Shown here: in pieces, positions 16,266 through 49,097 of the stretch
Position numbering within the stretch: the first letter of the stretch is position 1
How the letters are laid out: every line of letters begins with the position of its first letter
Assembly (NCBI RefSeq): GCF_022809315.2
Contig: NZ_JAKZJU020000002.1
Location: forward strand, 168,326 to 232,325
DNA: 64,000 nt
Reading direction: 5' to 3'
Source of the DNA: Mesosutterella faecium
Lineage (GTDB): Bacteria > Pseudomonadota > Gammaproteobacteria > Burkholderiales > Burkholderiaceae_F
Notes under the pieces: model-generated
Seen by the model: the letters and a program-made list of their open reading frames with translations, nothing else
What the model was told of the DNA's origin: nothing
The model's database searches: none
Made by a program: the position numbers and the translations under genes

Positions 16266-16316
16266 ACTGCCCCAAAAAGTTAAGACACCCCATATTATTC
16301 AAAAGGAGTGCCTACC

Positions 16317-16868: not shown

Positions 16869-16870
16869 TT

Positions 16871-17694: not shown

Positions 17695-17813
17695 GATTCA
17701 ACTCAAAAACAGAGTGTCTAAACTTTAAGGGTTAGTCTACCCTCCACCCCCTTTTTGTCTTCGCGGCCCCCGCCCGGGCTGAAAGCCCGGCGGGAAGTGC
17801 CTTCATTTTCCCT

Positions 17814-19139: not shown

Positions 19140-19227
19140 GCCTTATCTCCTTTAAGTGCCCCGGCGGGCCTTCCTCTGGAGGCAGGGGAAAGGCTTCGCT
19201 TCAGCTTGAAAAAATCCGATTCCGCCT

Positions 19228-20712
19228 TTAAAGCAACGCCTCGAAGGCCGCATCGAGCTTCGCCTTCGCCTCGTCGATCGCCTCGCAGCGCGAGGCGACC
19301 CAGCGCTCGTCCTCAGAGAGCCGCCTGCCCGCGGCCTCGAGCCCCGCCTTCGTCGAGGCGGGGGCGGGGGAGCCTGTGCCTACCCTCGTACGGACCACGT
19401 AGCCGGGCGAGAGGTACCTGCGGAACTCTTCTTCGGACATCGGCAGCTCCTCCTCCTTGCCGAGCAGTTTTGCCGTCACCTCGCGGAAACACTGCTGCGC
19501 CTTCTCGTAGGGGAAGTTCTTCGGGATCCAGCCCTCGCTGCGCGCCACGGTCACCACGGCACTCGCGAAGTTGTGCCCAACCCTGAAGGGCAGGGCGAAC
19601 TCCATCTGCAGCCCTTCGGCTAGCGCCATCGTGCAGGTCCAGTCGTTTTCCAGCTCCTCTAGCGCCCGGTCCTTGTGCACCCGCAACAGCTCGAAGGTTT
19701 TCTTCGCGAGCGCGAGCAGGTGCACCGCCTTCACAAAAACCGCGGTGTTGTCCTCGCTCACCGACTCCTTGTTGTCGTACATACCGAGCGGCAGGTTGTG
19801 GGCCCGGATGAAGCACGTGTTCACCGCGCCGATCACGTCTCCCGCCTTCGCGCGGGCCTTATTGATGATGCCCGGGTTCCTCTTCTGTGGCATCGCGGAG
19901 CTGCTGTAGGTAGAGTGCTGGTCGAGCAGCAGCCAGGGGCGGGTCTGAGCGTACTGCTGCGCGATATCGGCGAGCAGCGTCGAGATGAGCACCGCCGCGC
20001 GGCCAGCCACCCCAGCCTCCTCGAGCGGCACGTCAAAGAGACTCACCTGAGAGCTGTCAAGCGAGTTCGTGATCGGGCCGTCGAAGCCCAGTAGCTCGGC
20101 GAGCCTCCCGCGCGACAGCGGTCAGGCGGAGTTCGCGAGGACCGCGGAGCCCAGCGCGCAGCGGTTCACCCGCGTATAGCCCTCGCGCAGCGCATCGAAC
20201 TCGCGCTCGAAGGCCTCGAGGAACGCCCAGAGGTAGAAGCCCAGCGTCACGGGCATTGCCTGCACGCCGTTCGTGTAGGCGGGGATCAGGGTCTCGACGT
20301 GCTGGAGCGCGATCGAAAGCAGTGTGCGCCGGAACTCGTTCATCGACTGCGCTAGATCGAGCACCGAGCGGCGCAACCGCCCCTGGTTGAGGGTGGCGAA
20401 GATATCCTGGCGGCTGCGGCCGGTGTGGATGAGCGTCGCCTCCTGGCCGCACTGCTCGATGAGAGCCTTCTCTAGCGGCATTATGTCAGAGAGCGGCGGC
20501 TCGCCCGGTCGCGTGAACTTCTCCTCGGCCTTCTTCTGCGCCCGGGCGATCCGGCTCACCGTCTCGGGCGGCAGGATCTTCTGCTCGGCGAGCATGACGA
20601 GGGACGCCCGGTTGATAATGAGCTCCCAGAAGCCCCAGTTTTCCGCTTCGGCCCGGGCGCTCGTTGAATGAGGAATGTCCCGCCCTCAAGGGCAGGTGTT
20701 GGTGATTTCCAT
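19228..20712 (-). pseudogene. Argininosuccinate-lyase-superfamily gene with nonsense codon and frameshift
   Basis: A third paralogue of the lyases at 44.5 and 50.3 kb. The ancestral ATG at 20712 has AGAGG upstream, but codon 9 is TGA. The body continues with RASLVMLAEQKILPPE and TGRSRQDIFAT, goes out of frame near 20122 after AVLANSA, and resumes with LLGFDGPITNSLD and the lyase signature SSAMPQKRNP to the stop at 19228. Enzymes of this family split C-N bonds and release fumarate. With two lesions the gene should not give a full protein. dcuC follows. Confidence 0.85.
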
Positions 20713-21148: not shown

Positions 21149-21820
21149 CTACCGGATGTCAATCATCTTTTCGGTCTGCAGGCTCAGCCTAAGTTTGCCG
21201 CTGCGGCTGATGACGTACTCAAAGCACAGCCGGGTGGCCTCCTTGTCCTGAGACTTCGGCTGAAGGCAGAAAAGCTTGTCCGGGTACGCGACCCGCAGCG
21301 GCTTCATCCTTTCGAGGTCCGCCTCGTTCCCGATGACATACTTGATCTCGTCAGCCCGGCGGGCCATACGCGGAACGAGCTCCCCGTTCGGGACGCCGAG
21401 CTTGGGGGAAACGACCACGTAGACGTAGTCCGGGAAATCGAAGTCGACGTGCCCGGAGGTTTCAACCGCGATGTCCAGCCCCCGGGCCCTGAGCGACTCG
21501 CATAAGGGGCCGATGTCCTGCTCGCAGGGCTCGCCGCCCGTCAGGATGACCAGCGGAATGTTTGGGTACCGGCCGGTGATGTCCCGCACGAGCGCTTCCT
21601 TTTCAATGAGCGCGCAGCCGGCTTTCCGGTCCTTTACGAAGATTTCCGATGCAGGCACGAGCGAGGCGCACTTCGCGCCGCCCTTCCACGTGTACTTCGT
21701 GTCGCACCATGGACACCTCACGGAGCAGCCTTGAAACCTCACAAACACCGCCGGGCAACCGGTTTTCGCGCCCTCGCCCTGCACGGAGGGGAAAATCTCG
21801 TTGATGTAGTAGCTCGTCAT
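21149..21820 (-). CDS. queE: 7-carboxy-7-deazaguanine synthase
   Basis: A radical-SAM enzyme of 223 residues that converts 6-carboxy-tetrahydropterin to 7-carboxy-7-deazaguanine on the way to preQ0 and queuosine in tRNA. The N-terminus has the typical NEIFPSVQGEG and the cluster-binding cysteines in GCSVRCPWCD, with a QueE-type longer insert in the cysteine loop region. LTGGEP and VETSGH bind SAM and substrate. It starts one base after the queD stop, so the two are translated together. Length and motifs are normal. Confidence 0.92.
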   Translation of the reverse strand: MTSYYINEIFPSVQGEGAKTGCPAVFVRFQGCSVRCPWCDTKYTWKGGAKCASLVPASEIFVKDRKAGCALIEKEALVRDITGRYPNIPLVILTGGEPCEQDIGPLCESLRARGLDIAVETSGHVDFDFPDYVYVVVSPKLGVPNGELVPRMARRADEIKYVIGNEADLERMKPLRVAYPDKLFCLQPKSQDKEATRLCFEYVISRSGKLRLSLQTEKMIDIR

Positions 21821-21821
21821 C

Positions 21822-22235
21822 TCAAAGCGAAAAAGCCGCCGAACATTTTCTTGTCTCCTCCACTTCGCACCTGACGAGGGTCACGCCCGTTCCCTCGAGC
21901 TGCTTCGGGGCGACGACCCGGACCAGATGCTCGGCGATGTTCTCCGCGGTCGGGTTGAACGGGACGAACACGACCGCCGGGTCGAGCCTTCGCAGATCTT
22001 CGGCGATCGGATCCTTCTCCCAGATCAGGAACCGGTGGTCGTAGTTTTCCTCAAGCCACTCGCACAGCCGCGCCTTGATCACGCTGAAGTCGATGACCCT
22101 TCCAACGTCGTCGCGGTCCCCCGCGCAGGTGAAGGTGATCCGGTAATTGTGCCCATGAAGATGAGCGCATTTCCCTTCATGGCCGTAAACCCTGTGGCCG
22201 CAGGAAATATCATGATATCTGGTGCAGGTGATCAT
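21822..22235 (-). CDS. queD: 6-carboxy-5,6,7,8-tetrahydropterin synthase
   Basis: A 137-residue QueD/PTPS-family enzyme that makes 6-carboxy-tetrahydropterin from dihydroneopterin triphosphate, the first dedicated step of queuosine synthesis. Zinc-binding histidines are visible in SCGHRVYGHEG and HLHGHNY, and the catalytic region includes ENYDHRFL. It precedes queE in a two-gene operon. Its ATG (22235) has no good ribosome site of its own; the strong AAGGAG upstream fits a five-codon leader whose TGA overlaps this ATG. Confidence 0.92.
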   Translation of the reverse strand: MITCTRYHDISCGHRVYGHEGKCAHLHGHNYRITFTCAGDRDDVGRVIDFSVIKARLCEWLEENYDHRFLIWEKDPIAEDLRRLDPAVVFVPFNPTAENIAEHLVRVVAPKQLEGTGVTLVRCEVEETRKCSAAFSL

Positions 22236-26668: not shown

Positions 26669-27841
26669 TCAGAACTTGTGGACCAAGCCCAAGCCTACCT
26701 GAACTTCGTTCGGATTGGGGTTACTATTTAGCTTCTTGTAAGAAGCTCCCTTAGCCTTTTCCTGAGCGTAACCGACAAGGCCATAAACGTTAGTTCTCTT
26801 AGAGAAAGCGTAGGTGTAGCCCGCGGCCACGTTCCAACGATGGAACTTCACATCGGAGTCGTCCACATCCTTCGCGTCGCGGTAGCCGACAGCGGCGAGG
26901 AAGTTTCCGCCGAAGGCCGGCACCTTCGTGCCGAGTTCAAGACCCCAGCCCTTAACCGCATCCGTGGTCACATCTTCGTTATTAACCTTATGTGTGACAT
27001 TCTTCAGGAGCTTGAACGTATCCACAACAGAGCCAACGTCTTCGTTGTCGAAGTAAGTGGCCTTGGCGAAGACCTTGGCAACGCCGAAGTCGTAGTTGCC
27101 TCCCAGGATGATGCTGTAGCCGTCATCAAGGTCCTTGCCATACTGATCATTGCCCCACATCGTGTAGTCACCGGCGAGGACCACCTTGAACTTCGGCGCC
27201 TTGTACTGCAGACCTACAGCAGCGTAGCGGGTGGCACTCGCCTTATTCTCGACACCGCTCACATCTTTACTATTTTTGTCCTTCGCAAGGTCATTGCCCT
27301 TGAAGGAGTACATCGCGCCGGCACTGAAGCCGCCGAACTTCGGGGTCATGTAGGCGAGGGTGTTGTCGTAACGGGTATAAGCAGACCCGGTAGAACCATT
27401 GCCCTTAGCTGTATCGCCGTAAGTCATGCCGAAGGCCGAGATATCGCCCAGCATGGAGACCGAGCCGCCGATACTGGCAATAGACATCAGGCGACCGGCA
27501 TAGAGAGCGCCGTAAGCACCGGAAACATTCACCTGGGCTTCACGGCCGAAGAGGCGGCTCTGTCCGTTTGTACCATCGTCAGAATTGAAACCCGATTCGA
27601 GGACGAAACCGACCTTGGCGTTGCCAATGTCTTCCGTCCCCTTCAGGCCCCAGCGGGAACCGGTGGAGAAGCCGGACTTCATTTCGAACGTGTCGGTGGA
27701 ATCAACACCCTTTTTATCCAGATCCTGGTGGGTGTAGACGAGGCCCGTATCAATGCGGCCGTAGAGGGTCACGGACGGGGCAGCGAAAGCAGAAGCGGCA
27801 AAGGCTCCGAGGATCGCAGCCGCAACCAAAGACTTTTTCAT
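26669..27841 (-). CDS. Outer-membrane porin (Burkholderiales trimeric type), copy A
   Basis: A 390-residue general porin. A signal peptide (MKKSLVAAAILGAFAASAFA) is followed by APSVTLYGRIDTGLVY, the first strand typical of Neisseria/Burkholderia porins, then alternating beta strands and a C-terminal strand ending in Phe (VQVGLGLVHKF) needed for outer-membrane insertion by the Bam complex. AGGAG precedes ATG 27841. It is about as long as, and highly similar to, the next gene; the two differ mainly in surface-loop stretches. They form a tandem duplicate pair, each with its own terminator, so they are probably regulated separately. Confidence 0.93.
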   Translation of the reverse strand: MKKSLVAAAILGAFAASAFAAPSVTLYGRIDTGLVYTHQDLDKKGVDSTDTFEMKSGFSTGSRWGLKGTEDIGNAKVGFVLESGFNSDDGTNGQSRLFGREAQVNVSGAYGALYAGRLMSIASIGGSVSMLGDISAFGMTYGDTAKGNGSTGSAYTRYDNTLAYMTPKFGGFSAGAMYSFKGNDLAKDKNSKDVSGVENKASATRYAAVGLQYKAPKFKVVLAGDYTMWGNDQYGKDLDDGYSIILGGNYDFGVAKVFAKATYFDNEDVGSVVDTFKLLKNVTHKVNNEDVTTDAVKGWGLELGTKVPAFGGNFLAAVGYRDAKDVDDSDVKFHRWNVAAGYTYAFSKRTNVYGLVGYAQEKAKGASYKKLNSNPNPNEVQVGLGLVHKF

Positions 27842-28126
27842 CTTATCTTCTCTCCTACTCATAATGAAATTGAACTTTGGATGATGAGGGCAGATCTCAT
27901 CCGTTGAAACTAGTCCAATAGTGACACTGCTTCGGGCGTTTGTCGGCAAAAAATGAAACAAAAGAGTTTTGCATAATCTGCAAAACTCTATCCGAAAAAC
28001 ATCTAAAGTATTAAATCCTAATGAATTTTATCTATACGAATCCAAATTCCCCGGCAAAATCCTGCTGTTGCAGAAACGCAACAGAGAAGGTTTAGCCCGG
28101 CGGCCTTTCTTTTTCCGCAGAAAAGC

Positions 28127-28160
28127 AGAACCGCATTCCGGAATACCGAAATGCGGTTCT
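28127..28160 (-). terminator. Terminator between the two porin genes
   Basis: A perfect 11-bp stem AGAACCGCATT/AATGCGGTTCT, followed on the minus strand by GCTTTTC. A second hairpin (AAGGCGGA/TCCGCCTT) lies at about 28170-28200, closer to the stop. Confidence 0.65.
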
Positions 28161-28216
28161 TTCGCTTCAAGTTCAAGGCGGAATGCGTGTTCCGCCTTTT
28201 TCTCAGTTAAGAGAAA

Positions 28217-29371
28217 TTAGAACTTGTGGACGAGGCCGAGGCCGACCTGAGCGGCGTTCGGGGTGCGGGCGTCAGCACCACCCTTAGCCTTTTCCTGAGC
28301 GTAGCCAGCGGCAGCGTAGACGTTGGTGCGCTTGGAGAACGGATAGGCGTAGCCGACAGCGGCGTTCCAGCGATGATACTTGATGCTAGTGTGGTCCACA
28401 TCCTTGGCGTCACGATAGCCAACGGTGGCGAGGAAGTCGCCGCCGAAAGCCGGCACCTTGGTGCTGACTTCAAGGCCCCAGCCCTTCACAGCAACTGTGC
28501 CGTTACCGACATAGCCCGTGGTCTTGTTAGTAGCATCAAAAACACCGAAGGAGTCAAGAGCGTTGGCCGCGTTGTCGAAGTAAGTGGCCTTGCCGAAGAC
28601 CTGGGCAACGCCGAAGTCATAGTTGCCGCCGAGGACGATGGTGTAGCCATCATCAAGATCCTTGCCATACTGATCATTGCTCCACATCGTGTAGTCGCCA
28701 GCCAGGACGGCGGTGAACTTGCCGGCCTTGTACTGCAGGCCAGCAGCAGCGTAGCGGGTAGCACTCGCCTTATTCTCGACACCGCTCACATCTTTTTTAT
28801 CTTTGTCCTTCGCAAGGTCATTGCCCTTGAAGGAGTACATCGCGGAAACCGTGAAGCCGGCCATCGACGGGGTCTTGTAGGCGATGACGTTGTCGTAGCG
28901 GTCATAGCCGGAACCGGTCGAGCCCTTCATCGTGCCGACGATGCCATAGCCGTTCGGGAAGGCGGAAACGCTGCCCAGCAGGCAGAGGGAGCCGGAATCG
29001 CTCACGATGGAGCCCAGACGGCCGGCATAGAGGGTGCCGTACGCGCCGGAGACGTTCACCTGAGCTTCACGGCCGAAGAGACGGCCGCCCTGGCCGCTCG
29101 TGCCGTCGTCAGAGTTGAAGCCGGACTCGAGGACGAAGCCGACCTTGGCGTTGCCAATGTCTTCCGTGCCCTTCAGGCCCCAGCGGGAGCCAGTGGAGAA
29201 GCCGGTGGTCATCTCGAGCGTGTCGGTGGAATCACCCTTGGGCTGATCCAGATCCTGGTGAGTATAAGCAAGGCCGGTATCAATACGGCCGTACAGGGTC
29301 ACGGACGGAGCAGCGAAAGCAGAGGCGGCAAAAGCGCCGAGCAGAGCAACTGCAACAAGAGACTTTTTCAT
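28217..29371 (-). CDS. Outer-membrane porin, copy B
   Basis: A 384-residue paralogue of the porin at 26.7 kb. It has a signal peptide MKKSLVAVALLGAFAASAFA, then APSVTLYGRIDTGLAY, shared inner-strand text such as GSRWGLKGTEDIGNAKVGF, and the same C-terminal VGLGLVHKF. Loops differ, for instance GQGGRLFGRE and the region around DATNKTTGYVGN. AGGAG lies upstream of ATG 29371. Porins of this type admit small polar and anionic solutes and are usually among the most expressed genes. Divergent loops between tandem copies suggest phage or immune pressure. Confidence 0.93.
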   Translation of the reverse strand: MKKSLVAVALLGAFAASAFAAPSVTLYGRIDTGLAYTHQDLDQPKGDSTDTLEMTTGFSTGSRWGLKGTEDIGNAKVGFVLESGFNSDDGTSGQGGRLFGREAQVNVSGAYGTLYAGRLGSIVSDSGSLCLLGSVSAFPNGYGIVGTMKGSTGSGYDRYDNVIAYKTPSMAGFTVSAMYSFKGNDLAKDKDKKDVSGVENKASATRYAAAGLQYKAGKFTAVLAGDYTMWSNDQYGKDLDDGYTIVLGGNYDFGVAQVFGKATYFDNAANALDSFGVFDATNKTTGYVGNGTVAVKGWGLEVSTKVPAFGGDFLATVGYRDAKDVDHTSIKYHRWNAAVGYAYPFSKRTNVYAAAGYAQEKAKGGADARTPNAAQVGLGLVHKF

Positions 29372-30134
29372 TTGGTTTAAAACTCCTAATCCAGCCTCGG
29401 CTGAGGCTTCTTTGGTTAAGAACAATCGGGCATAACCCGAACGTCCTCTGTGTCTATCCTGCCAAGACTTGCCGACTTAGGATATAGGGTTTTTACCAAT
29501 AAATTACCGGTCTTCTGTTTTAGCGTCTATGTATTTATTTGTTTTTAATGTATAAATTTATAAATTAAAAAACTCTGGGCTTTTAGTTTTTTTACATTGA
29601 AGTGTTGTTAAAAAGCAACATTTTCGTTTCCGCCGTCGTTTCAACCGATCTAAGCAGAGCTTGAAATAAACGGCTTTGCCCCAGCCGAGCCCCCCTTCGG
29701 CGCTCAGCGCAGCGCTTAAAGCTACACCAGTAGCTTCGCCCCTGAGCAGTCCTCCGCCGGTCCCCGGTGCGAGGTCCATCGAAATCAATTTCCCATTCAC
29801 CGCTGCGGGAGATTTTTTTCCTGCCCTCTTCATCTCTCCAGCCGGCCCCGGCCGGGGCTTGTCCGGGAGGTTCAGGCAGACGCGGCTCACGCTCTCCCCG
29901 CGCGCATCTTTCTTTCTGAGAAAGCCAGGCTTATAGGCCGGCCTCCAACGAATCAAATTCGGGACCCGCTTGAATTTTCTTCCGCGGAGGCACTGTAAAA
30001 GCACAGCAGACCCGGTTTACGGACACCCTGCTTCCGGCCCAAAAAGCGACCGGAGTTCGGCTATAACAATAACCGTTTAGAACAAACCCTTAGCCCCAGA
30101 ACGGGGGCAGCGCCCAGCGGCCCGTCCCGCCGGT
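29372..30134. other. 763-base spacer with no supported gene
   Basis: The first 200 bases are AT-rich and should hold the porin B promoter. The remainder is GC-rich with no recognisable protein. An open frame at 29558-30004 has no ribosome site and an implausible Arg/Lys/Pro composition. This spacer separates the chromosome-like genes on the left from the replication module. Confidence 0.4.
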
Positions 30135-31247
30135 TCAGGACCTCGAGCGGCGGCGGCTCCGGAATCCCAGCTGCTTGAGCCAGGGGTTATAGATCTTTTG
30201 AACAAAGGAAGGAGAGGCAAGCTCGCTTCGCAGCCAGTCCGCAAACTCTTCCGACGAAGAGCCCTTCGGGTTCATGTTCTGGGCTTTGAGCCACTCGAAA
30301 AAAGCGTGCGCGTTGAAGCCGGTCGCCTCGACCTTTTTGGCGTTCCGCCCCGCGAGCCAGTCCGCGTACATGGGGATCTGCCGCACGGAAAGCGTCGCCT
30401 GCGCTTCGGTGAGCACCGTCTGGGCCTTCGCGTGCGCTGCGCCCTCCTCGTGCTTTGCGGGTTTGCCGCTGGGGAGCACGGAATAGGGCTTGGGCTGGAG
30501 GTGGAAGATCAGCCTCGTCACGCGGTTGTGCTCGCCCTTTTCGATTTCAAGCTCCAGCCCGAACTTCGTGTAAGGGGAAGCGTTGATCTGCCGCACTGCG
30601 ACGTCGAGAATCCGCTGCTTGAAATTGCCGAAGAGCCGGTAGGCGCTCCCCAGGTTGAGCGCCTTGCGCAGCTCCTCCACCGTCGTGATGAACGTCCTCT
30701 TCGGATGGTTCTGGTACTGAAGCGCCATCGTGTAGATGCGGACCGCGTAAACGCTTTTGAGGCCTTTTAAATCCACGAGCTCGAACTCGGTGAACCGCTC
30801 CTTCAGCTGCTGGATGAACGGGATGAACTGCTCGGTGAAGTTAAAGCCGATTTTCCCGTCCCCGTAGGACAGGGCCGCAAGGAAGTGGAACTGCACGTAG
30901 TTTTTCTTGTCCGGGTGCTTCTTATAGGCCTCGTACTGGGTCCTGAAGCCGCTTCGCAGCGACGGAAAGGCGTCGAGCGCGCTCATGGAAATCGTGGCCG
31001 AGCTGTGAAAGAGCGTCTGCGAGGCCTTGGAGAGCGCCGCGTACACCTCCTGCTTGCGGGTGCCGAGCATCATCACGTCCTCGGCTGAAACATAATAGGT
31101 TTCGCTCGGCCTGATTTCCTCGTCGGGCTTCACCGAGGCGATGGCGGCCATGACCACGCGAAGCTCGAACAAATCCAGCTTGTAGGAAGCAAAATTGAGC
31201 GGATTCAGGTACCGCACCATTTTGCCGTCTTTTGAATGATTGGCCAT
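30135..31247 (-). CDS. repB: Rep_3/RepB-family plasmid replication initiator
   Basis: A 370-residue initiator built of two winged-helix domains, as in Rep_3 proteins (pPS10 RepA, R6K Pi, F RepE). The first includes DLFELRVVMAAIASVKPDE and a MSALDAFPSLRSGFR stretch; the second includes GLKSVYAVRIYTMALQYQ and TVEELRKALNLG. Such proteins bind iterons, open the origin and repress their own gene as dimers. It is transcribed away from 15 iterons that start 114 bases upstream of the chosen ATG (31247). The C-terminal tail is long and basic (SRRRSRS). The gene looks intact. Confidence 0.9.
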   Translation of the reverse strand: MANHSKDGKMVRYLNPLNFASYKLDLFELRVVMAAIASVKPDEEIRPSETYYVSAEDVMMLGTRKQEVYAALSKASQTLFHSSATISMSALDAFPSLRSGFRTQYEAYKKHPDKKNYVQFHFLAALSYGDGKIGFNFTEQFIPFIQQLKERFTEFELVDLKGLKSVYAVRIYTMALQYQNHPKRTFITTVEELRKALNLGSAYRLFGNFKQRILDVAVRQINASPYTKFGLELEIEKGEHNRVTRLIFHLQPKPYSVLPSGKPAKHEEGAAHAKAQTVLTEAQATLSVRQIPMYADWLAGRNAKKVEATGFNAHAFFEWLKAQNMNPKGSSSEEFADWLRSELASPSFVQKIYNPWLKQLGFRSRRRSRS

Positions 31248-31310
31248 CGAAAAACCCGCCTCTGCACAGAATGGAGAAATCGTACGCCCGCATTTCAAAG
31301 GCTGCAGGAT

Positions 31311-31319
31311 TTATCCACA
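31311..31319 (+). promoter_or_regulatory. DnaA box 1
   Basis: TTATCCACA, a perfect consensus DnaA box between repB and the first iteron. Confidence 0.8.
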
Positions 31320-31360
31320 GGCCTTGAGCCATAACAACAAAATACTTTGTTATACCCATG

Positions 31361-32339
31361 CACGGCAGACGTAATTTGAACGGTACGGCAGACGTTATAA
31401 CAATACACGGCAAAGGTTATACCAAAGGTACGGTCTCCGTTATAAAAAAGGGGCCTCTATATATAAAAGAAAGGAAAAGATTTAAAAATACTAAAAAAGA
31501 AAGTACAGAAGCTGTGGATAACAAGCCCGAAGAACAGCACTTACTTAAGAAAAACGAGCACGGCAAACGTTATACCGACCAGCCGTTTCTTTTTCCCCGA
31601 CCAGTACGGGAAACGTTATATCAAAAGGTGAGCTTCTTTCTGCACCTCATTGTTTAAAAACAAAAAAATACGTGAATTCAAGAAAAACTGCACCCGACCG
31701 CACGCGTCTTTTCCTGCTCTCAGCCATACACGGCAAACGTTATAGAAAGGACCAAAAGGCTTTCAAAGCCGCGCATGAACGCAAAAAAAAACGAGAAGCC
31801 TGTTTCCCTGTCGCTTTCCGTCAGACCCACGTCTTTAAAAGACATCAAACCGAACAGCCCGCCCTTCTCCCCGCAGATTGGGATTTAAAGACATAAAAAA
31901 ACAGGAAAACGAAGCCGGAAACTGACTTTCCGGCCGGTACGGAAGACGTTATAGCGGCGGTCTTACTGGCGGGCAATCGGGTACGGTAAGCGTTATATCT
32001 CCAAAGCAGCCCCGCCGTTCATTTTCTTAAAGTCCCGAAAAGGGTACGGCAGACGTTATAGCTAGAGAAAAAAAGAAATCACCCCAGGGTACGGAAAGCG
32101 TTATAGCCGCGGCTGGAAAGGCGTTGCCGCAAAGGATACGGCAACCGTTATACCCTGTTTCACCGGAAGCTTCAGACACCTATTCATATCTTATTGATTT
32201 AAAAGAATTATTTAAGAAAGCGTCTGATCCTGCAAAGCCGGCACGGCAAACGTTATACCTCAAGCTGAGCTTCAAGAGAACCAGCGGGTACGGAGAACGT
32301 TATTTCAGGATGTCTCCTTAAGGTACGGAAAACGTTATA
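31361..32339 (+). repeat. Fifteen iterons of the plasmid-type origin
   Basis: Consensus (T/C)ACGGNAAACGTTATA, 16 bp, all on the same strand. Starts: 31361 (degenerate), 31384, 31406, 31429, 31559, 31605, 31729, 31938, 31982, 32045, 32090, 32137, 32242, 32289, 32324. The first four are 22-23 bp apart, one copy per two helical turns as in classical iteron origins. Many later ones are 44-47 bp apart, and others are scattered. The ACGTTATA part is nearly invariant; the AAA/AGA part varies. Initiator binding sites are the expected role; the later group may control copy number by handcuffing. Confidence 0.9.
31440..31521 (+). other. Probable origin opening region with DnaA box 2
   Basis: An AT-rich stretch (about 31440-31510) lies between the tight iteron group and a second perfect DnaA box, TGTGGATAA (31513-31521), in opposite orientation to box 1. 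Order: DnaA box, four iterons, AT-rich stretch, DnaA box. This matches the layout of iteron plasmid origins. The melting role is inferred. Confidence 0.7.
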
Positions 32340-32420
32340 GCCCTGCCCTTCCGGCGGCAGTCTGCCTGCCGATCTGCTTCAAACCTTTTTTAAACAGTCA
32401 ATAAAGAGTGAATTTAAATT

Positions 32421-32612
32421 GATTCAATATTGAAACACTCAGAAGACAAATTTAAAGCAGTCTTAAAACACATTTAAATCGGCCTGCCGAAGGCGGAACC
32501 GAAAACCGCTTCTTCCTCGCCTCGAGATCTCCAAGAGAAGAACTCAGTCAATATTGCCTATGATTACAATGTAGAGACAATTGTTTAACAATTATAAAAC
32601 ACATTGTTTAAA
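32421..32612 (+). promoter_or_regulatory. Probable operator/partition region before parA
   Basis: An AT-rich stretch with the palindrome TTCAATATTGAA (32423-32434) and a cluster of related repeats at 32561-32612 (TACAATGTA, ACAATTGTTTAACAATT, ACATTGTTTAA). ParA operons are commonly autoregulated at such sites, and similar motifs recur in the spacers to 40.5 kb. Confidence 0.5.
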
Positions 32613-32714
32613 ATCTAATATTTGTGGCTTCATCCTCCTCTGTGTAATATTCTCTGGCGGAAAAAAAACGGCGGCTCCGCCGCTTTTTTCCTCATTTCCT
32701 CAAGGGGACGCCAA

Positions 32715-33368
32715 GTGATCATCGCTGTAGCCAACATCAAGGGCGGCGTTGGAAAGACCAACATCGCCGTTTCCATCGCGACTTACCTGCTCACGCAGAA
32801 AGCCAAAACGGTCTTCCTCGTCGACACCGATGAGCAGGAGTCGGCCTCGATGGCCCTGAAAGTCCGCAAAATGCTGGGAGTGAAGCCCGCCGTGCCCTTC
32901 AAGCTGATCACGGAAGCGAAGGAGCTCAGCTGGAACCTTGAGGAATTGAAAAAACAGTACGACTACGTCATCGTCGACGCGGGAGGACGCGATACGGAAG
33001 CCCTGAGGGCGACGCTGCTTCGCACGGATATTCTTCTGGTCCCCTGCCCTCCCGGAAGCACCGACATCTGGTCCTTCAAAAAGAAGCTGGGCAAAATCGT
33101 CGCCGACGCCAGAAAGATCGGCGGCAAATTCAAGGCCTACAGCTTTCTCTCGCGGGCTGACGCGAAGCTCGGCTCGGCCGACAACATCAACGCCCAGAAA
33201 ATCATCGAGCAGGTGCCGGAGTTTGAGTTCGTCGACGCGAGAATCGTGAACCGCAAGGCCTACGGCATCGCCCTGGGTTCCGGGAAATCGGTTTTCGAGC
33301 TTCGGCCGCGCGATCTCAAGGCCTGCAACGAAATCCGGTATCTGGTGGAAAAAACCATCCCGCTCTGA
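32715..33368 (+). CDS. parA: ParA-type partition ATPase (short, type Ib-like)
   Basis: A 217-residue Walker-type ATPase that would move or position replicon copies on the nucleoid. The deviant Walker A is KGGVGKTN right after VIIAVANI; LVDTDEQESA and YVIVDAGGRDT are the Walker A-prime and B regions. It lacks the N-terminal helix-turn-helix of long ParA proteins, as in type Ib systems whose small partner does the DNA binding. The start is GTG 32715 with AGGGGA upstream; an earlier TTG at 32622 has no ribosome site. A small ribbon-helix-helix gene follows 85 bases later. Confidence 0.88.
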   Translation: MIIAVANIKGGVGKTNIAVSIATYLLTQKAKTVFLVDTDEQESASMALKVRKMLGVKPAVPFKLITEAKELSWNLEELKKQYDYVIVDAGGRDTEALRATLLRTDILLVPCPPGSTDIWSFKKKLGKIVADARKIGGKFKAYSFLSRADAKLGSADNINAQKIIEQVPEFEFVDARIVNRKAYGIALGSGKSVFELRPRDLKACNEIRYLVEKTIPL

Positions 33369-33389
33369 CAGATGTAATACAATGTGTTA

Positions 33390-33420
33390 AAACAGCTGAA
33401 TAAATACATTTCAGCTGTTT
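33390..33420 (+). promoter_or_regulatory. Hairpin between parA and the RHH gene
   Basis: A perfect 11-bp stem AAACAGCTGAA/TTCAGCTGTTT with a 9-base loop, next to TACAATGTGTT (33378), which repeats a motif from the parA upstream region. It may be an attenuator or a binding site for the partition protein. Confidence 0.45.
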
Positions 33421-33453
33421 AGCACTGTTTCTCAAAATTTACGAGTCTCCACC

Positions 33454-33738
33454 ATGCCCAATACCTTCTTTGATCCGGATATGGATGAAAACAGCCCTGC
33501 CCCTGCGGAGAAAGAAGAATCCGCGGACGGCTCCCTCTCGGCGAAGGAAAGAGAGTTCGTGCAGAGGAAGCCCGGGCGGCCGCGCCTCATCAACAAGCGC
33601 CAGCAGCTCACGATCTACCTGCCTAAGGAAAAGCTGCAGGAAGTCGACAAGGTGGCAAGCGACTACGGGATGACTCGAAACGGCTTCATCAACGCGGCGA
33701 TTTCCCAGGCCCTGAACAACGGCCTCATGGTCCGCTGA
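33454..33738 (+). CDS. Ribbon-helix-helix partition partner with AT-hook-like motif
   Basis: A 94-residue protein. After an acidic, probably disordered N-terminus, RKPGRPRL (about residues 38-45) has the PGRPR core of an AT-hook, which binds the minor groove of AT-rich DNA. It is followed by a ribbon-helix-helix domain (RQQLTIYLPKEKLQEVDKVA, then GMTRNGFINAAISQAL). Small RHH proteins next to short ParA proteins act as centromere-binding ParB equivalents and operon repressors. No other ParB is nearby. The AT-hook-like element would fit the AT-rich repeats around the module. Role inferred from position and fold. Confidence 0.75.
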   Translation: MPNTFFDPDMDENSPAPAEKEESADGSLSAKEREFVQRKPGRPRLINKRQQLTIYLPKEKLQEVDKVASDYGMTRNGFINAAISQALNNGLMVR

Positions 33739-33760
33739 AAGGGCTGCCCCTTGAAAAGCT

Positions 33761-33787
33761 CCGGCCGCACCGCGGCCGGTCTCTTTT
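33761..33787 (+). terminator. Terminator of the parA operon
   Basis: CCGGCCGC-ACC-GCGGCCGG followed by TCTCTTTTT, 23 bases after the RHH stop. Confidence 0.8.
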
Positions 33788-34707: not shown

Positions 34708-34859
34708 CCGTAACGGTTTCAATTTAGGTACGTTACTCAGTTCCGGCGACCAATTTTTCGATTTTCTCGGCAGTGACGTTAATCCGTAACGGTTTCAATT
34801 TAGGTACGTTACTCAGTTCCGGCGACCAATTTTTCGATTTTCTCGGCAGTGACGTTAAT
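34708..34859. repeat. 76-bp tandem duplication of the IS left end
   Basis: Bases 34708-34783 and 34784-34859 are identical. Each copy holds the whole left inverted repeat (starting CCGTAACGGTTTCAATTTAG) and the first bases inward, including the last codons of the transposase gene. The target duplication borders the outer copy, so the element now carries two left ends. Confidence 0.9.
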
Positions 34860-36401
34860 GCCAAGTTTTTCGCACAGCCTGGCAGTAGACCTCTTAATGG
34901 GCGGCATCTGCCACGATTTTCCCAATCTTGCCGCCCTGATTTTCTCCAGGCCGCTGGTCAGGTCCTTGTACGAAATGTTTTTGCCTTCGCCGATGGAATA
35001 AATGTCCTCGATGGTTTTGACGCAGAAGCCGGCCGCAAGATGGTTCAGGAACAGCCACGCTTCCTCCTGGGTTGCTCCGCGCATATACGAGGCTTCGAAG
35101 TCCAGGGTCTCTGAATAGGTTTTGAAGAACTGCTCGATGTTCTGGCGCTGCTTGTAGATGTAATAAACAGCCTCGCCTTCCAGGTCCAGCCGATTGGTCT
35201 TAATGATGATGACGCCCATCGCCGGATGGGCGTCATGAATGTCAGAGAGCTCCACAGGCCTGAGAGCCTCCAGTTCGGCGTCGGTCAGTCTTCCCTTGCC
35301 CTTTTTTCTTCTGTTTTCTTCCGCCTGGCGAGCCTGTCCGACGGTGCGGTTCTGTGCTTCCATTCGGGCGGTGGCCGTAGCCATCTCATCGGAGTACAGC
35401 TCTGGATCGAAATAGATGTGGAGCCGTGAAGCTTTGTCCTGGCAGTCAAAGGAACTGTACTGAATCGAGCGGGAGTGATACGTGAAGCCCTTCTGGTAGC
35501 CTCTGGGCGACTCAGGTATCAGATCCGCCGCTGCCGCGCAGTTCCGCCTGAGGGGCAGCAGGTACTTCAGGCCATCGTCCTCAAGCTGGCAGAAGCCATC
35601 CTCGCTCGCAAAGCCTTTGTCGGCGATGACGGTGTAGTTTTTCCCGTTCATCGAGGTCTCGCGCAGCAGGTCGGAGAAGCAGCTCACGTCGGGGGTGCTC
35701 CCGGCATACTGCTTGTAATACAAAGGCATCCCGGTGTCTTCGCCCAACGAAAATACGTACACCAGATTGATCTGGGGCTTGAATCTGCACTTGGAGTCGT
35801 AGCCCAGTTCAGCCGTCGTCATGGTCTGGGAGGCAGACAGGATTCTGTGCCCGTCAAAAAGGATGAAGGCTTCCCGATCTTCAAGGTCTTCCCGCATGTA
35901 GCCTCGGATGGCCTCCCGGCTCCTGCCCAGCTGCTCGAGCAGATCCCTGATGCACGGCCTTTGGAAGGACAGGCCCGGGCAGAGGTAGGAGAACAGGCTG
36001 TTTTCGTAGTGAGACTGCAGCCTTCGGAATCGGGGATCCAGCGCCGAACGGACATACACGGCCGTGTAAATCTGCCGCCAAAGATCAGGAAAATATTTCC
36101 TGAGGCGCCGACGCATGGGAGCCGTGTTTTCCCAGAAATACACTTCATTGCCCACGGCAACCACATCGTTCAGAACAGCGGGCTTGGGCTCGGCGAGCCT
36201 GCGGGTGGTTTTCACCAGCCCCTCGGGAGTGATGGCTCCGAGGCATTTCCCGGATATTTTCCGGCTGCGCTTTATTTCCGGATCGTATTTGCTGAAGCGC
36301 TCATAAAGATACCAGCGGCCGCCGATTTTCTTGATCTCGGTCTGCCTGGGTTTGGACTTCTGAAATTGAATCACATAATCCGGTTTTTCCGTCGTAGCCA
36401 T
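34809..36401 (-). CDS. IS1634-type transposase, second family member
   Basis: A DDE transposase of about 530 residues reading from ATG 36401 (an upstream in-frame extension to 36464 lacks features). Catalytic acids fit AFILFDGHRI, TVIADKGFASEDG and YKQRQNIEQFFKTY. A long Lys/Glu-rich insert (RQAEENRRKKGKGRL) precedes the last block. The final codons lie in the inner copy of the duplicated end, so the protein is unaffected. It is clearly distinct from the transposase at 9.7 kb. Confidence 0.88.
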   Translation of the reverse strand: MATTEKPDYVIQFQKSKPRQTEIKKIGGRWYLYERFSKYDPEIKRSRKISGKCLGAITPEGLVKTTRRLAEPKPAVLNDVVAVGNEVYFWENTAPMRRRLRKYFPDLWRQIYTAVYVRSALDPRFRRLQSHYENSLFSYLCPGLSFQRPCIRDLLEQLGRSREAIRGYMREDLEDREAFILFDGHRILSASQTMTTAELGYDSKCRFKPQINLVYVFSLGEDTGMPLYYKQYAGSTPDVSCFSDLLRETSMNGKNYTVIADKGFASEDGFCQLEDDGLKYLLPLRRNCAAAADLIPESPRGYQKGFTYHSRSIQYSSFDCQDKASRLHIYFDPELYSDEMATATARMEAQNRTVGQARQAEENRRKKGKGRLTDAELEALRPVELSDIHDAHPAMGVIIIKTNRLDLEGEAVYYIYKQRQNIEQFFKTYSETLDFEASYMRGATQEEAWLFLNHLAAGFCVKTIEDIYSIGEGKNISYKDLTSGLEKIRAARLGKSWQMPPIKRSTARLCEKLGINVTAEKIEKLVAGTE

Positions 36402-36863
36402 AGCTGTCTTTATAACCACCCTATTAGGTATACCAATTATGACATATACAGGCCCGAATTTCAAGGTTTGAGAAATAGAGGTAAACGCCCGGTGGTGCGG
36501 GCTTTAGGGAAAATTCTGAAAGATAAGGGACGCGATTATCGCGTCCCTAAATTGAAACCGTTACGGTTCAACCGCACCGGCAGGCGGCAGCCCCATGGAG
36601 GGCTTCCGGCTCTTCGGGCCGGAGCGTCCCGAAAGACCTTCGTCCAGGCGCGTCGGGGTCGCAGGGCTTCCAGGTTGACTGCCCTTTGGGGACTCGAGTT
36701 GAAACTTAAGTTCGATCCGGGATGAAAAGCTATTAATACAAGTTTAATAACAAGCGAATAAATAGTGAAAACCGATTTAACCGATTGTTAAAAATTCTCA
36801 AGGCGGACAGCCTTTGCCCGAAAGAAGCGGGCTGAGGCTGCTCGCTCAAAGTTTCTCCAGGGA

Positions 36864-41662: not shown

Positions 41663-43099
41663 ATGACGACAACCCGCATTGAAAAAGACTGTCTGGGCGA
41701 GATGGAGATTCCGAACGACCAGTACTACGGCATTCAGACCCACCGCATGGTGAAGGTTTCCGGGGCGGCCGGAGTTCCCGTGATCGCCTACCCCGAGATG
41801 CACCGGGCGCTGTTTCACATCAAGAAGTGCTGCGCACTTGCCAACGCCGACATCGGGGCCCTTGAGCCCGAAGTCGCCCAGGCGATCGCCAAGGCCGCCG
41901 ATCTCGCGCTTCAGGGGCGCTTCGACGACCAGTTCCCGCTCGACATGTGGCAGGGCGGAGGCTACACCTGCGTCAACATGAACGTGAACGAGGTGCTCGG
42001 CAACGCCGCAAACGAGATCCTCACCGGCCACAAGGGCCAGGACCGCGTCCACCCGAACACCCACGTGAACAAGGCCCAGTCCACCAACGACACCATTCCC
42101 TCGGCCACCCACCTCGCGATGGCCCCCGGAATCGACAAAATCATCGACGGACTGGACAAGCTGCAGGCGAGCTTCGCGAAGAAGGCCGAAGAATTCAAGG
42201 ACGTCGTGAAGGTCGGCCGCACCTGCTGGCAGGACGCGCTGCCCTTGACGTTGGGCCAGGAGTTCTCGGGCTACGCCTCTCTCATGGGGCGGCTGGCCGC
42301 GAAGCTGCGCGCCGCGCGGCCCGGCTGCTTCGAGCTCGTGATGGGCGGCAGCGCCGTGGGCACGGGGCTTGGAGCGGATCCGGGCTACATGGAGGCGCTC
42401 TACCGCCACCTCTCCGAAGAGTACGGCGAGACGGTGCGCCCGATGGACAACCTCTTTGACGGCTTCCAGAACTCCGACTTCGTGGTCACGGTCTCGGGGC
42501 TCGTGAAGGAAGTGGCCGCGTCGCTGTCCAAGATCTGCAAGGACCTGCGGCTCATGAGCAGCGGCCCGCGCTCGGGCTTCATGGAAATCGGCCTGCCCGC
42601 GCTCTCTCCGGGAAGCTCCATCATGCCCGGCAAGATCAACCCGACGGTGCCCGAGATGGTGATCCAGATCGCGCACCAGGTGATCGGCAACGATGTGGCG
42701 ATCACGGTGGCCTACGACGAGGGCGAGCTCGACCTCAACGTCTGGGACTCGACCTTCTACAAGTGCATCATGGAGAACCTCAGGCTCGTGGGCGAGGAGC
42801 TCGTCATCCTTCGGCGCGACTGCGTCGACGGCATCACGGCGAACCGCGCCCGCTGCCAGCAGGAGGCCGACCGCTCCGTCGCCCTTTCGACCGTGGTCGC
42901 GGCGACCTTCGGCTATCCGGAAGGGGTGCGGGTCGCCCATTACTGCGAGCAGCACAACGGGACCGTGAAGCAGGCGGTGGTCGACATGGGCCTCATGACA
43001 AAGGAAGAGGCCGGGCGGATGATCGACCCCATGCTGATGACCGAGCCGGCACAGATGGCCCGCGCGATCGCGCAGTTCAAGGCTTCGAAAAAGGCCTGA
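41663..43099 (+). CDS. aspA: Aspartate ammonia-lyase
   Basis: A 478-residue enzyme of the aspartase/fumarase superfamily that splits L-aspartate into fumarate and ammonia. Signatures are GGGYTCVNMNVNEVLGNAAN, NKAQSTNDTIPSA, the catalytic-loop GSSIMPGKINP and a C-terminal domain of usual length. GAGGA precedes ATG 41663. A LysR gene lies divergently upstream, and a strong terminator follows at 43165. In an asaccharolytic anaerobe this is a main route from amino acids to fumarate as electron acceptor. Fumarase differs at HVNKAQS, so aspartase is favoured. Confidence 0.92.
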   Translation: MTTTRIEKDCLGEMEIPNDQYYGIQTHRMVKVSGAAGVPVIAYPEMHRALFHIKKCCALANADIGALEPEVAQAIAKAADLALQGRFDDQFPLDMWQGGGYTCVNMNVNEVLGNAANEILTGHKGQDRVHPNTHVNKAQSTNDTIPSATHLAMAPGIDKIIDGLDKLQASFAKKAEEFKDVVKVGRTCWQDALPLTLGQEFSGYASLMGRLAAKLRAARPGCFELVMGGSAVGTGLGADPGYMEALYRHLSEEYGETVRPMDNLFDGFQNSDFVVTVSGLVKEVAASLSKICKDLRLMSSGPRSGFMEIGLPALSPGSSIMPGKINPTVPEMVIQIAHQVIGNDVAITVAYDEGELDLNVWDSTFYKCIMENLRLVGEELVILRRDCVDGITANRARCQQEADRSVALSTVVAATFGYPEGVRVAHYCEQHNGTVKQAVVDMGLMTKEEAGRMIDPMLMTEPAQMARAIAQFKASKKA

Positions 43100-43333: not shown

Positions 43334-44323
43334 ATGGGGATCCCTGACATGGCCGCCAGAAACGAATATCCGGAAATATCAACACTGCGGGCTTTTTCCA
43401 TCACGGCCCGGGAGGGAAGCGCCGCCCGGGCGGCGAAAATCCTCGGGGTGTCGCAGCCGGCGATTTCAATTGCAATCCAGAAGCTCGAAGGGATGATCGG
43501 GCTGCCGCTGTTTGACCGCAGCTCCCGGCCCATGCAGCTCACCGCCGCCGGGCGGCTCCTTAAAAACCGAGCGGACCCGATTCTGGGGCAGCTCGAGAGC
43601 ATCGCCTCCGAAGTAAAGAGTGCCGTGAAAAGCGGCGGACTCGACCTGCGGGTGGGATTTTCCGACTCCTACAGCGGCTGCGTCTCCCCCTACATGCTCC
43701 CCAGGCTCGTCTCCCGGGTGAAGAATCTCTACGCCTACAGCCACTCCACGCCCCAGATCGTGCGGATGCTGCTCGAAGACAAGGTGGACATCGCAGTTGC
43801 AACCAAGTTCCCGCGCGAAAACCCGGACATCAGCGGGCTTGTCCTCCTCACGGAAAAATTCCTCGTCGTAACCCCGAAAAAATACGAGGGGAAGATCCAT
43901 TCGGTCTGCGACCTGCAGAAACTGCAGGCGCAGCTTCCGGTCATCCGCTTCAACGACGCGAGCCTCGACCGGATCCAGATCGAGCGGGTGCTGCGCCAGT
44001 GCAGCATACAAAGCGAGCGGGTCATCGCGGCCGACATCAACGGCTCCGTCCTCGAGCTTGTGAACAGCGGCACGGGCTGGACCATCATGAGCCCCTTAAG
44101 CCTTTGGATGGCGCACGATCACATGGCCAATATCGCCTGCCACGAAATCGAAGGCCTCAAGGCCACAAGATCCTTTTACGTGCTCTACAGAAGCCCGGTC
44201 TACAGAAGCCTCGCCAATTTCATCCATGAAGAGTCTCTTTCGATCCTGAAGGAGATCGTCCTGCCGGCAATCGCCCGCGTCTCGCCCTTCCTTTCTGAGT
44301 CGGTCACGTGCGCCAAGGATTGA
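43334..44323 (+). CDS. LysR-family regulator
   Basis: A 329-residue LysR protein. The helix-turn-helix is EGSAARAAKILGVSQPAISIAIQ, with FDRSSRPMQLTAAGRLL next, and then a normal effector-binding domain. ATG 43334 is used here; ATG 43349 is an equally possible start, as neither has a strong ribosome site. It lies between aspA and the lyase/dcuA pair on the same strand. LysR proteins in this position often sense the lyase substrate or product. It is not closely similar to the LysR at 40.5 kb. Confidence 0.87.
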   Translation: MGIPDMAARNEYPEISTLRAFSITAREGSAARAAKILGVSQPAISIAIQKLEGMIGLPLFDRSSRPMQLTAAGRLLKNRADPILGQLESIASEVKSAVKSGGLDLRVGFSDSYSGCVSPYMLPRLVSRVKNLYAYSHSTPQIVRMLLEDKVDIAVATKFPRENPDISGLVLLTEKFLVVTPKKYEGKIHSVCDLQKLQAQLPVIRFNDASLDRIQIERVLRQCSIQSERVIAADINGSVLELVNSGTGWTIMSPLSLWMAHDHMANIACHEIEGLKATRSFYVLYRSPVYRSLANFIHEESLSILKEIVLPAIARVSPFLSESVTCAKD

Positions 44324-44491
44324 AGGCGCCTGAGAAGCCCGCCTTTTTGAGCCTTTTTTAAGATTTGGATTAATTTTTCTTATAGTGGGAGAAAGCCTCG
44401 CCTTCGCGCCCTATAGTTTGGGGCACGCGGCGGCGGGCCGCTCCGAAACGCCGGTGTCCGCCGCCCGGTCCTTCTGTTTTGGAGAATGCTC

Positions 44492-45997
44492 ATGGCTGAA
44501 AGAATTCATCGCGGCAAAATCAAGACTCCGCCGGATCCGCTGGTTGTCAAATACCTGATCACCCCGGGCATAGAAAACGACATCAAGTACCGCTACCAGG
44601 CTTTCCTTGACTGCAACAAGGCCCATGTCCTGATGCTCATGCGCCAGAAGATCGTCACGCGCGAAGTGGCCAGCGCCATTTTGAAGTGCAACCGCGACAT
44701 GGCCGCAATGGGCGACAAGCCGGACTTTCCGATCGATCCCAACCGCGAAGACTTCTATTTCAATCTCGAGGCGCACCTGATTGAGCAGGTGGGCATCGAA
44801 ATAGGAGGCCAGCAGCACACGGCCCGCTCGAGGAACGACCTGTACGCGACCTGCGCGAGGCTTGCGGTCCGCAACTCCTACTTCGAAATCTGCCGCATCT
44901 TCAACCGGATGCGCCAGGCGATCATCGAGGTGGCCCGCGCGAACGAGGACGCGGTCTACGCCGGCTACACGCACATGCAGCCCTCGGAGCCGATCACCTT
45001 CGCGCACTACTGCTCGGCGGTTTTAAACGGGCTGCAGCGCGACTACAGGCGCATCGCTCACTGCTACGAGGGGCTCAACCTCTGCCCGCTGGGCGGCGGC
45101 TCCATGGGCAGCACCACCTGGAACATCGACAGGAACTACACCTCGAAGATGCTGGGCTTTGACGCCCCGGTCGACAATTCGATCGACTGCGTGGCCACCC
45201 GCGACTTCATCACCGACATCCTCGCCGCGCTGTCCATCGCCGCGAACACCCTGAGCCGCTTCTGCCAGGACCTCTACGTTTGGGCGACGCCCGACTACGG
45301 CTACATCGAGGTGTCCGACAGCTGCGCGGTCTGCTCCTCGATCATGCCCCAGAAGAAGAACCCTTGGGTGCTGGAGCACATCAAGGCGAAGGCGGCCCAC
45401 GTCGAGGGCTGCTTCATGAGCGCTCTCAACGTGATGAAGAACGTTATCTACTCGCACTGCGAGGACATGTGCGGGGAGTCCGCCAACTACTTCTTCCCGG
45501 CTCTGCAGGAAATGAAGATGATGTGCGAGCTGATGGAGGTGAGCATCAGGGGGATCACCGTGAAGAAGGAGCGGATGCTGGAAAACGCCAAGGGTGACTT
45601 CTGCACCGTGACCGAGCTCGCGAACGCCCTGGTCCGCAAGGACGGCATCAGCTTCCGCATGGCCCACGACATCGTGGCCCAGGTGGTCGCTCACATGCTT
45701 GAGACCCACAAGAGGGCGGACGAGATCGGCACCGATGTCGTGAATCCGATCTATATGAAGCTTTTCAACCGCACGACCGGCATGACCGACGAGGAAATCC
45801 GCGCCGCCCTGGATCCGGTTGCGATCGCCTATGCGAAGAAATGCATCGGAGGAACCGCTCCTGAAGAGGTCGAGCGGCAGCTCAACAACCGCCAGAAGGC
45901 GCTTGACCAGGACAACGCCGAGCTGAAGGAAAGGATGGACCGCGTCGCTGCGGCCAAGGCCGCGCTTGAGCAGGCCGTGACCGAAGCCATCGCCTGA
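44492..45997 (+). CDS. Argininosuccinate-lyase-superfamily enzyme, copy 1
   Basis: A 501-residue C-N lyase related to ArgH and to lyases that cleave N-succinyl amines, all releasing fumarate. It has ARSRNDLYAT, YAGYTHMQPSEPITFAH, GGGSMGSTTW and the catalytic-serine loop CSSIMPQKKNP. GGAG precedes ATG 44492 (an earlier in-frame ATG at 44486 lies too close to it). No arginine genes are near. Next on the strand is a DcuA/B carrier, and aspA is upstream. The paralogue at 50.3 kb shares most motifs. A catabolic role, giving fumarate from an imported N-succinyl compound or argininosuccinate, is inferred. Confidence 0.8.
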   Translation: MAERIHRGKIKTPPDPLVVKYLITPGIENDIKYRYQAFLDCNKAHVLMLMRQKIVTREVASAILKCNRDMAAMGDKPDFPIDPNREDFYFNLEAHLIEQVGIEIGGQQHTARSRNDLYATCARLAVRNSYFEICRIFNRMRQAIIEVARANEDAVYAGYTHMQPSEPITFAHYCSAVLNGLQRDYRRIAHCYEGLNLCPLGGGSMGSTTWNIDRNYTSKMLGFDAPVDNSIDCVATRDFITDILAALSIAANTLSRFCQDLYVWATPDYGYIEVSDSCAVCSSIMPQKKNPWVLEHIKAKAAHVEGCFMSALNVMKNVIYSHCEDMCGESANYFFPALQEMKMMCELMEVSIRGITVKKERMLENAKGDFCTVTELANALVRKDGISFRMAHDIVAQVVAHMLETHKRADEIGTDVVNPIYMKLFNRTTGMTDEEIRAALDPVAIAYAKKCIGGTAPEEVERQLNNRQKALDQDNAELKERMDRVAAAKAALEQAVTEAIA

Positions 45998-46024
45998 TTT
46001 TCCGTTTCATTCGGTGAAAAGACG

Positions 46025-46064
46025 CCCCGGCTCCCCTCCTGACTGGGAAGCCGGGGTTTATTTT
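46025..46064 (+). terminator. Terminator of lyase copy 1
   Basis: CCCCGGCT/AGCCGGGG stem followed by TTTATTTT, 28 bases after the stop codon. Confidence 0.75.
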
Positions 46065-48135: not shown

Positions 48136-48169
48136 GGCCTGAGGGCTGCTTTTAAAGCCTGAAAAAACA

Positions 48170-48198
48170 GGGTCGGCCGATGTCTGGCCGGCCCTTTT
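48170..48198 (+). terminator. dcuA terminator
   Basis: GGGTCGGCC-GATGTCT-GGCCGGCCC followed by TTTT, just before the next gene. Confidence 0.75.
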
Positions 48199-48221
48199 CC
48201 GTCTCTGAAGGGAGCGATCAG

Positions 48222-49064: not shown

Positions 49065-49097
49065 AGCCCCAGGGGCAGAAGGCGCGTCGCCGCAGAA

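Follow-up and report, generated by a model that had tools for sequence, protein, structure and literature searches.

A Rep_3 iteron origin and ParF-like partition genes as the very probable core of a separate circular secondary replicon in Mesosutterella

We analyzed a window of 64,000 nucleotides from the genome of Mesosutterella faecium, which comprises 2,606,253 bp in three contigs: the chromosome contig C1, the contig C2 (232,325 bp) that encodes a Rep_3 replication initiator (Rep), and C3 (40,950 bp). The window covers positions 168326-232325 of C2 and contains a module with the rep gene, iterons, DnaA boxes, parA and a small gene following parA. Very probably, this module serves as the core for replication and partition of a secondary replicon, a 232-kb circle apart from the chromosome, and this chromid-like megaplasmid is shared by members of the genus Mesosutterella, probably by descent. 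The sequence shows that C2 is a circle of its own, that the skew has its minimum at the module, and that the core origin is conserved in the Rep contigs of three relatives: M2 from M. porci (C23, 217 kb), D2 from M. multiformis JCM 32464T (G001:C2, 701,885 bp, next to a chromosome of 1,920,098 bp) and K2 (G003:C6, 585,375 bp). Among the matches listed for the open-access literature on Mesosutterella, or on Sutterella in combination with chromids, megaplasmids or multipartite genomes, there was no earlier report of this replicon; Mesosutterella appeared together with plasmids only in a list of new names, Sutterellaceae with chromids gave no open-access match, and Sutterella is not named in the main text of a 2025 chromid survey (PMC12456017).

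When M2 and C2 are aligned, the first and last bases of C2 (1 and 232325) are neighbors in the M. porci contig (M2 101523/101524), and C2 is therefore closed. This answers the question, raised by the original prediction, whether the contig is a circle of its own. The end-to-start junction of C1 is spanned by an open frame of 330 codons. The same prediction had asked for the location of dnaA and the rRNA genes: a full dnaA and all small-subunit rRNA matches lie on C1 and not on C2, as they lie on the chromosome contig in M. multiformis, and 53 of the 54 tRNAs of the M. faecium genome are found on C1. In a sample of 20 stretches, the guanine-cytosine (GC) skew of C1 flips at dnaA (547 kb): from there up to ~1.6 Mb it is positive, the other arm has negative values, and 17 of the stretches fit this pattern. 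The M. multiformis chromosome likewise shows a single two-armed skew cycle with a flip near dnaA (11 stretches sampled). K2 very likely closes into a circle as well, as its two ends, which have 178 bp in common at 97%, map to neighboring places on D2 (396 and 394 kb). In addition, the 9-kb and 659-kb positions of D2 are joined in K2, where the D2 ends are absent between them; this fits D2 being a circle.

The identification of Rep as a Rep_3 initiator is borne out by both Pfam domains of this family (Rep3_N, 1.8e-21; Rep3_C, 4.2e-10; both above the gathering score), and its PDB matches are plasmid replication initiators, including 1rep and the pi protein. Its score against the NCBIfam RepM model (NF038290) is 110.9 bits (7e-32), below the cut-off of 250, which places it outside RepM. 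Beside rep, the + strand carries 14 matches to TACGGN4CGTTATA with at most two mismatches (31384-32339), where shuffling gave a mean of 0.96 for the whole window; at a limit of three mismatches a 15th, more degenerate iteron is found at 31361, in agreement with the 15 same-strand iterons reported from inspection of the letters. Two further matches (at most two mismatches) are scattered on the - strand of the window. The two perfect DnaA boxes (TTATCCACA) noted earlier were also recovered, against 0.09 expected, and they flank an AT-rich stretch. Same-strand iterons and a DnaA box at an AT-rich stretch beside rep are the arrangement of a Rep_3 iteron replicon (Table 1).

The core origin common to all four replicons comprises four iterons (spacing 23-22-23 bp) and, after them, CTCTATATA, an A-rich stretch and a DnaA box. 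In D2 and K2 this core is doubled, the copies being 300 and 344 bp apart, and the DnaA box that follows the second copy deviates at one position. C2, M2, D2 and K2 have the identical iteron consensus GGTACGGnnnnCGTTATA despite an identity of 53-54% between the Rep of C2 and those of D2 and K2 (98% in M2). Around the D2 origin are two frames of 422 amino acids (aa) at 113954-115222 and 119417-120685, alike in their first 60 residues; the former lies within the iteron region and interrupts it, and at this place the region is shorter in K2.

A check of GC skew near 31.3 kb of the window had been proposed. The distance between the iterons and the minimum of the detrended cumulative skew is 2.2 kb for C2 (chance of such proximity 0.019), 2.3 kb for M2 (0.021), 1.3 kb for K2 (0.004) and 22 kb for D2 (0.064); because C2/M2 and D2/K2 are close pairs, these amount to about two independent tests. 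The skew ranges exceed those of 2-kb block shuffles (p 0.0002 for C2 and D2, 0.0008 for M2). On sequence grounds, the module is likely the origin of C2.

The module resembles Rep_3 iteron plasmids (RepM/RepE/pi-type) in the Rep_3 domains, the iterons beside rep, the DnaA boxes, the AT-rich stretch and an inverted repeat that shares an iteron half. In Rep_3 plasmids, comparable inverted repeats serve as Rep operators, and by analogy the repeat before the iterons is likely the operator of rep. Rep monomers would bind the four phased iterons of the core origin, and Rep together with DnaA at the flanking boxes would melt the AT-rich stretch and initiate replication in both directions; at the inverted repeat, dimers of Rep may repress rep, and the 11 extra iterons may keep copy number low through titration and handcuffing. 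The Mesosutterella replicons differ from these plasmids in their size (217-702 kb), in the RepM score and in Rep identity: matches to Rep occur in 2,542 plasmid records, all below 60% identity, and the best 20 of these reach 26-29%, led by an uncultured-bacterium record and followed mostly by small Acinetobacter plasmids.

The short ParA of the original prediction is confirmed as a ParF-like protein of 217 aa that lacks an N-terminal DNA-binding domain, as in type Ib par systems. It matches Pfam AAA_31 (4e-16), scores 128.3 against NCBIfam ParA_partition (cut-off 180), has ParF as its best PDB match (E 1.6e-9, residues 2-212) and is 39% identical to the ParA of D2. The predicted ribbon-helix-helix (RHH) partner stood in part: a small gene does follow parA, but an RHH fold is suggested by weak PDB matches (Arc, CopG, MazE6 and HicB; E 0.2-0.6) and a distant counterpart, a 93-aa protein after parA in M. 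multiformis D2 (33% over 66 residues, E 5e-9 in a single comparison), which a tblastn search of the whole M. multiformis replicon (E 0.01) missed. The partner has no match in Pfam or NCBIfam and its AlphaFold model is poor (predicted local distance difference test score 68), with two C-terminal helices more confident. We consider it probably an RHH protein, and together with the ParF-like ParA it would segregate the copies of the replicon. The pair is similar to ParF-ParG of TP228 and delta-omega of pSM19035 in the short ParA, the adjoining putative RHH protein and the short repeats at the presumed centromere. In the AT-rich region before parA no clear repeat unit was found, none of the 7- and 8-mers near the C2 and M2 origins was clearly enriched (lowest p 3e-4 in 250-312 tests), and a fixed-period 6-mer scan gave mostly repeats to which no link with partition was made.

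Table 1. Features of the replication and partition module, followed by other features of the window (window coordinates)
Feature	Position	Strand	Details and basis
Rep_3 initiator gene (rep)	30135..31247	-	370 aa from likely ATG at 31247; open frame to 31298; Pfam and PDB matches
Perfect DnaA box TTATCCACA	31311..31319	+	Motif search
Inverted repeat ATAACAA-9-TTGTTAT, putative Rep operator	31331..31353	.	Between rep and iterons; shares GTTATA with iterons; conserved in M. porci
Core origin, four iterons at 31361, 31384, 31406, 31429 (spacing 23-22-23)	31361..31444	+	Spacing identical in four replicons
AT-rich putative unwinding region with conserved CTCTATATA	31445..31512	.	Alignment
Perfect DnaA box closing the core origin	31513..31521	-	Motif search, alignment
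Eleven more same-strand iterons, putative copy-control array	31559..32339	+	Motif search
AT-rich region before parA, candidate local centromere (weak)	32380..32620	.	Partly conserved in M. porci
ParA, 217 aa, ParF-like	32715..33368	+	GTG start at 32715, open frame from 32622; Pfam, NCBIfam and PDB matches
94-aa putative RHH centromere-binding partner	33454..33738	+	Weak PDB matches, M. multiformis counterpart, AlphaFold model
IS1634-family transposase adjoining the module	34809..36464	-	NCBIfam match
queE and queD	21149..22235	-	Both below NCBIfam cut-offs; only queE found in the M. faecium genome
Aspartate ammonia-lyase-like gene	41663..43099	+	Reciprocal best hit on M. multiformis replicon (71%)
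tRNA-Gly(TCC), second copy in genome	63399..63473	+	Other copy on C1

Several observations weigh against a separate replicon shared within the genus. An open frame across the end-to-start junction of C2 was looked for and none was found, and closure of C2 therefore rests on M. porci. Three of the 20 stretches of C1 depart from the two-arm skew, namely the contig ends (+0.063 and +0.025) and 1.90 Mb (+0.001), and the skew maxima do not reach the point exactly opposite, with a shortfall of 12-22% for C2, M2 and D2 and of 5% for K2. Rep is present in four of five Mesosutterella genomes, with no relative in G002, an assembly of 100 contigs; therefore, either the replicon is not universal in the genus or the G002 assembly is incomplete. 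The steps of the mechanism beyond the architecture are all proposed by analogy with known Rep_3 plasmids. Nevertheless, the other possibility considered in the original prediction, a plasmid fused into the chromosome with the module as an inert remnant, is highly improbable. The closure of C2 seen in M. porci, the two-armed skew that C1 and the M. multiformis chromosome each have for themselves, apart from the cycle of C2, and the frame across the C1 junction led us to reject it in favor of a secondary replicon, even though the window holds metabolic genes and a tRNA, and the paper on the type strain M. faecium AGMB02718T describes the assembly as a single circular chromosome (PMC11022602). 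The separate C2 circle contradicts that description, and the N50 stated in the same paper, 2,332,978, is below its total of 2,606,253. A further point against fusion comes from the M. multiformis chromosome contig, in which 19.7 kb from the start recur close to the end (bases 347-20000 at 1880001-1899663, 99.9%); this fits a circular contig with overlapping ends, and the published genome size may therefore be inflated by 20-40 kb.

With a separate replicon as the preferred reading, its gene content bears on whether it is a chromid or an ordinary megaplasmid. The chromosome-like genes noted in the window exist, but as evidence they are weaker than was assumed: tRNA-Gly(TCC) is a second copy, the other being located between Thr and Tyr tRNAs on C1, and rpsT on C2 duplicates a chromosomal gene, and we rejected both as signs of a chromosome. 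The second rpsT (bS20) is part of a segment at C2 79194-83822 between two identical 333-bp direct repeats, the genes of which have no match on the M. porci contig. What remains of the claimed core metabolism is queE, class I nrdB and the only aconitase-length match. queE is on C2 alone in M. faecium and on the Rep contig in M. porci, and on the chromosome in M. multiformis. In all four Rep-bearing genomes, the sole class I nrdB and all listed aconitase-length matches lie on the Rep contig (one weak G003 match is additional to those listed, and an AcnB-type enzyme could have been missed by this search). D2 (296200-298560) and K2 (555588-558032) carry a further aconitase paralog with 54-55% identity to the C2 protein, and in G002, where neither nrdB nor Rep was found, the aconitase is encoded on a contig of 33 kb. 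From a panel of 91 E. coli housekeeping proteins, none had an ortholog-grade match on C2, M2, D2 or K2. Hits covering 60% were ihfA and lptB on C2 and M2 and lptB alone on D2 and K2, all at 32-35% identity, which we judge to be paralogs, and M2 had two further, shorter hits; on the chromosomes, paralog-like rows included, the panel gave 13 of 91 in 400 kb of M. faecium and 21 of 91 in 220 kb of M. multiformis.

According to the criteria of Harrison as given in PMC6090056, chromids combine plasmid-type replication and partition on a separate replicon with a chromosome-like composition, and these features are present here. GC content is 59.96 for C2 and 60.93 for the chromosome sample (0.97 points), and 55.78 against 56.05 for D2 (0.27 points); the dinucleotide distance to the sampled chromosome is 0.026 for C2 and 0.040 for D2, the latter not being distinctive because the phage-like C3 is at 0.0435 from C1. 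Essential core genes are likewise part of the chromid definition, and for these there are only candidates (queE, nrdB and aconitase). A true chromid with indispensable core genes is possible but rather doubtful: the plasmid-type origin, a GC content within 1 point of the chromosome and the location of nrdB and aconitase speak for it, but the aconitase of C2 has a scattered distribution among relatives of the same family (2 of 16 genomes), its nrdB is only ~30% identical to that of relatives and may not be needed by an anaerobe, rpsT and tRNA-Gly are duplicates, and no housekeeping protein of the panel is found. In view of this last result, we speak of a chromid-like megaplasmid and not of a proven chromid. 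Rep_3 plasmids were reported in one survey to carry universal single-copy genes less often than other plasmids (PMC10645730). An ordinary, dispensable megaplasmid present in several species through horizontal spread is unlikely. It would be compatible with the missing housekeeping genes and with Rep relatives at 25-35% identity in another genus (G008 and G034), but the iteron consensus and core origin are kept at a Rep identity of just 53-54%, the replicon GC tracks that of the host chromosome, and a DNA search of 72,556 plasmid records gave no match to the module longer than 61 bp. Moreover, of 194 frames called on C2, 63 find a reciprocal best hit in D2, in many cases a weak one. With thresholds of 45% protein identity and 60% cover on D2, plus a K2 hit of any kind, 35 frames remain, 29 of them reciprocal.

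The two larger replicons carry additional repeats. At no more than one mismatch, D2 and K2 each have 37 iterons (permuted motifs, ~1.6 and ~1.5), and C2 and M2 have 13 each. Seven of those in D2 lie outside the origin region, two of them in called genes, and the match at 317 kb looks like chance; five of the seven have a K2 counterpart with at most one mismatch, and a sixth a more degenerate one. All three distal places that were aligned contain arrays built from a 10-bp unit, nnnCTATNAG (or its reverse), a repeat that also flanks parA and its partner in D2. Arrays of at least three CTATNAG-type units number 23 in D2 and 20 in K2 (permuted motifs, at most 2), with none in C2, M2, C3 or the chromosome samples, and none of the 23 arrays of D2 falls in a called gene. 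In D2, 20 of 23 arrays are no more than 62 kb from the origin (18% of the circle), a limit set after seeing the data; in K2 this applies to 14 of 20 (21%), with two more at 63-64 kb and four at 146-163 kb. Around the origin, the arrays span 53-157 kb in D2 and 244-332 kb in K2; these ~90-100 kb contain 20 of 23 and 16 of 20 arrays, some of them beside iterons tens of kb away from the origin.

In our reading, the arrays would form a dispersed centromere to which the putative RHH partner binds, with added Rep-titration sites. In contrast to those of pSM19035 and TP228, they use a 10-bp unit and are scattered over ~90-100 kb. pSM19035 is described as needing four or more contiguous heptads to be fully active (PMC9499535), whereas 30 of the 43 arrays in D2 and K2 have three strict units. 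The distal iterons are comparable to the distal RctB sites described for V. cholerae chromosome II (PMC3937223), but the Mesosutterella replicon uses Rep_3 instead of RctB at ori2. A crtS-like chromosomal link was considered and rejected, as neither the ~400 kb of chromosome covered in M. faecium nor the 620 kb covered in M. multiformis contained iteron-like sites with at most one mismatch, a further difference from V. cholerae; two-mismatch hits on the M. multiformis chromosome, for which there is no shuffle control, were taken for chance. Tentatively, and as a proposal that falls somewhat short of probable, D2 and K2 may have gained a chromosome-like control region, in which 16-20 centromere arrays, some by distal Rep iterons, couple segregation and initiator titration over ~90-100 kb, so that control grew with size and the 0.22-Mb versions lack both.

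Other features were observed near the module and elsewhere on the contigs. A perfect 76-bp tandem duplication (window 34708-34859) is located at the end of the IS1634-family transposase gene, and two tandem porin-like frames beside rep (window 26669-29425) are 78% identical in DNA. C2 also encodes an 861-aa protein (12131-14716) with a C-terminal reverse transcriptase (Pfam RVT_1; PADLOC RT_XIII, 7e-62), near retron and defence reverse transcriptases, the flanking genes of which have no PADLOC match, and a 2,106-aa protein with an autotransporter beta-domain (43763-50083). The first 20 kb of C3 are phage-like, with an integrase, ParA, a DnaB-like helicase and a terminase, and C3 is possibly a phage-plasmid or prophage circle.

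These results correct the published genome structure of the M. faecium type strain, and place all aconitase-length genes found, as well as the sole class I nrdB, on the secondary replicon of a gut commensal genus with a 2.6-Mb genome. C2 alone is a further member of a known Rep_3 replicon type; scattered arrays and distal iterons set the larger replicons apart. The size series of 0.22, 0.59 and 0.70 Mb with one conserved origin offers a natural test of what is added as a plasmid grows toward a second chromosome.

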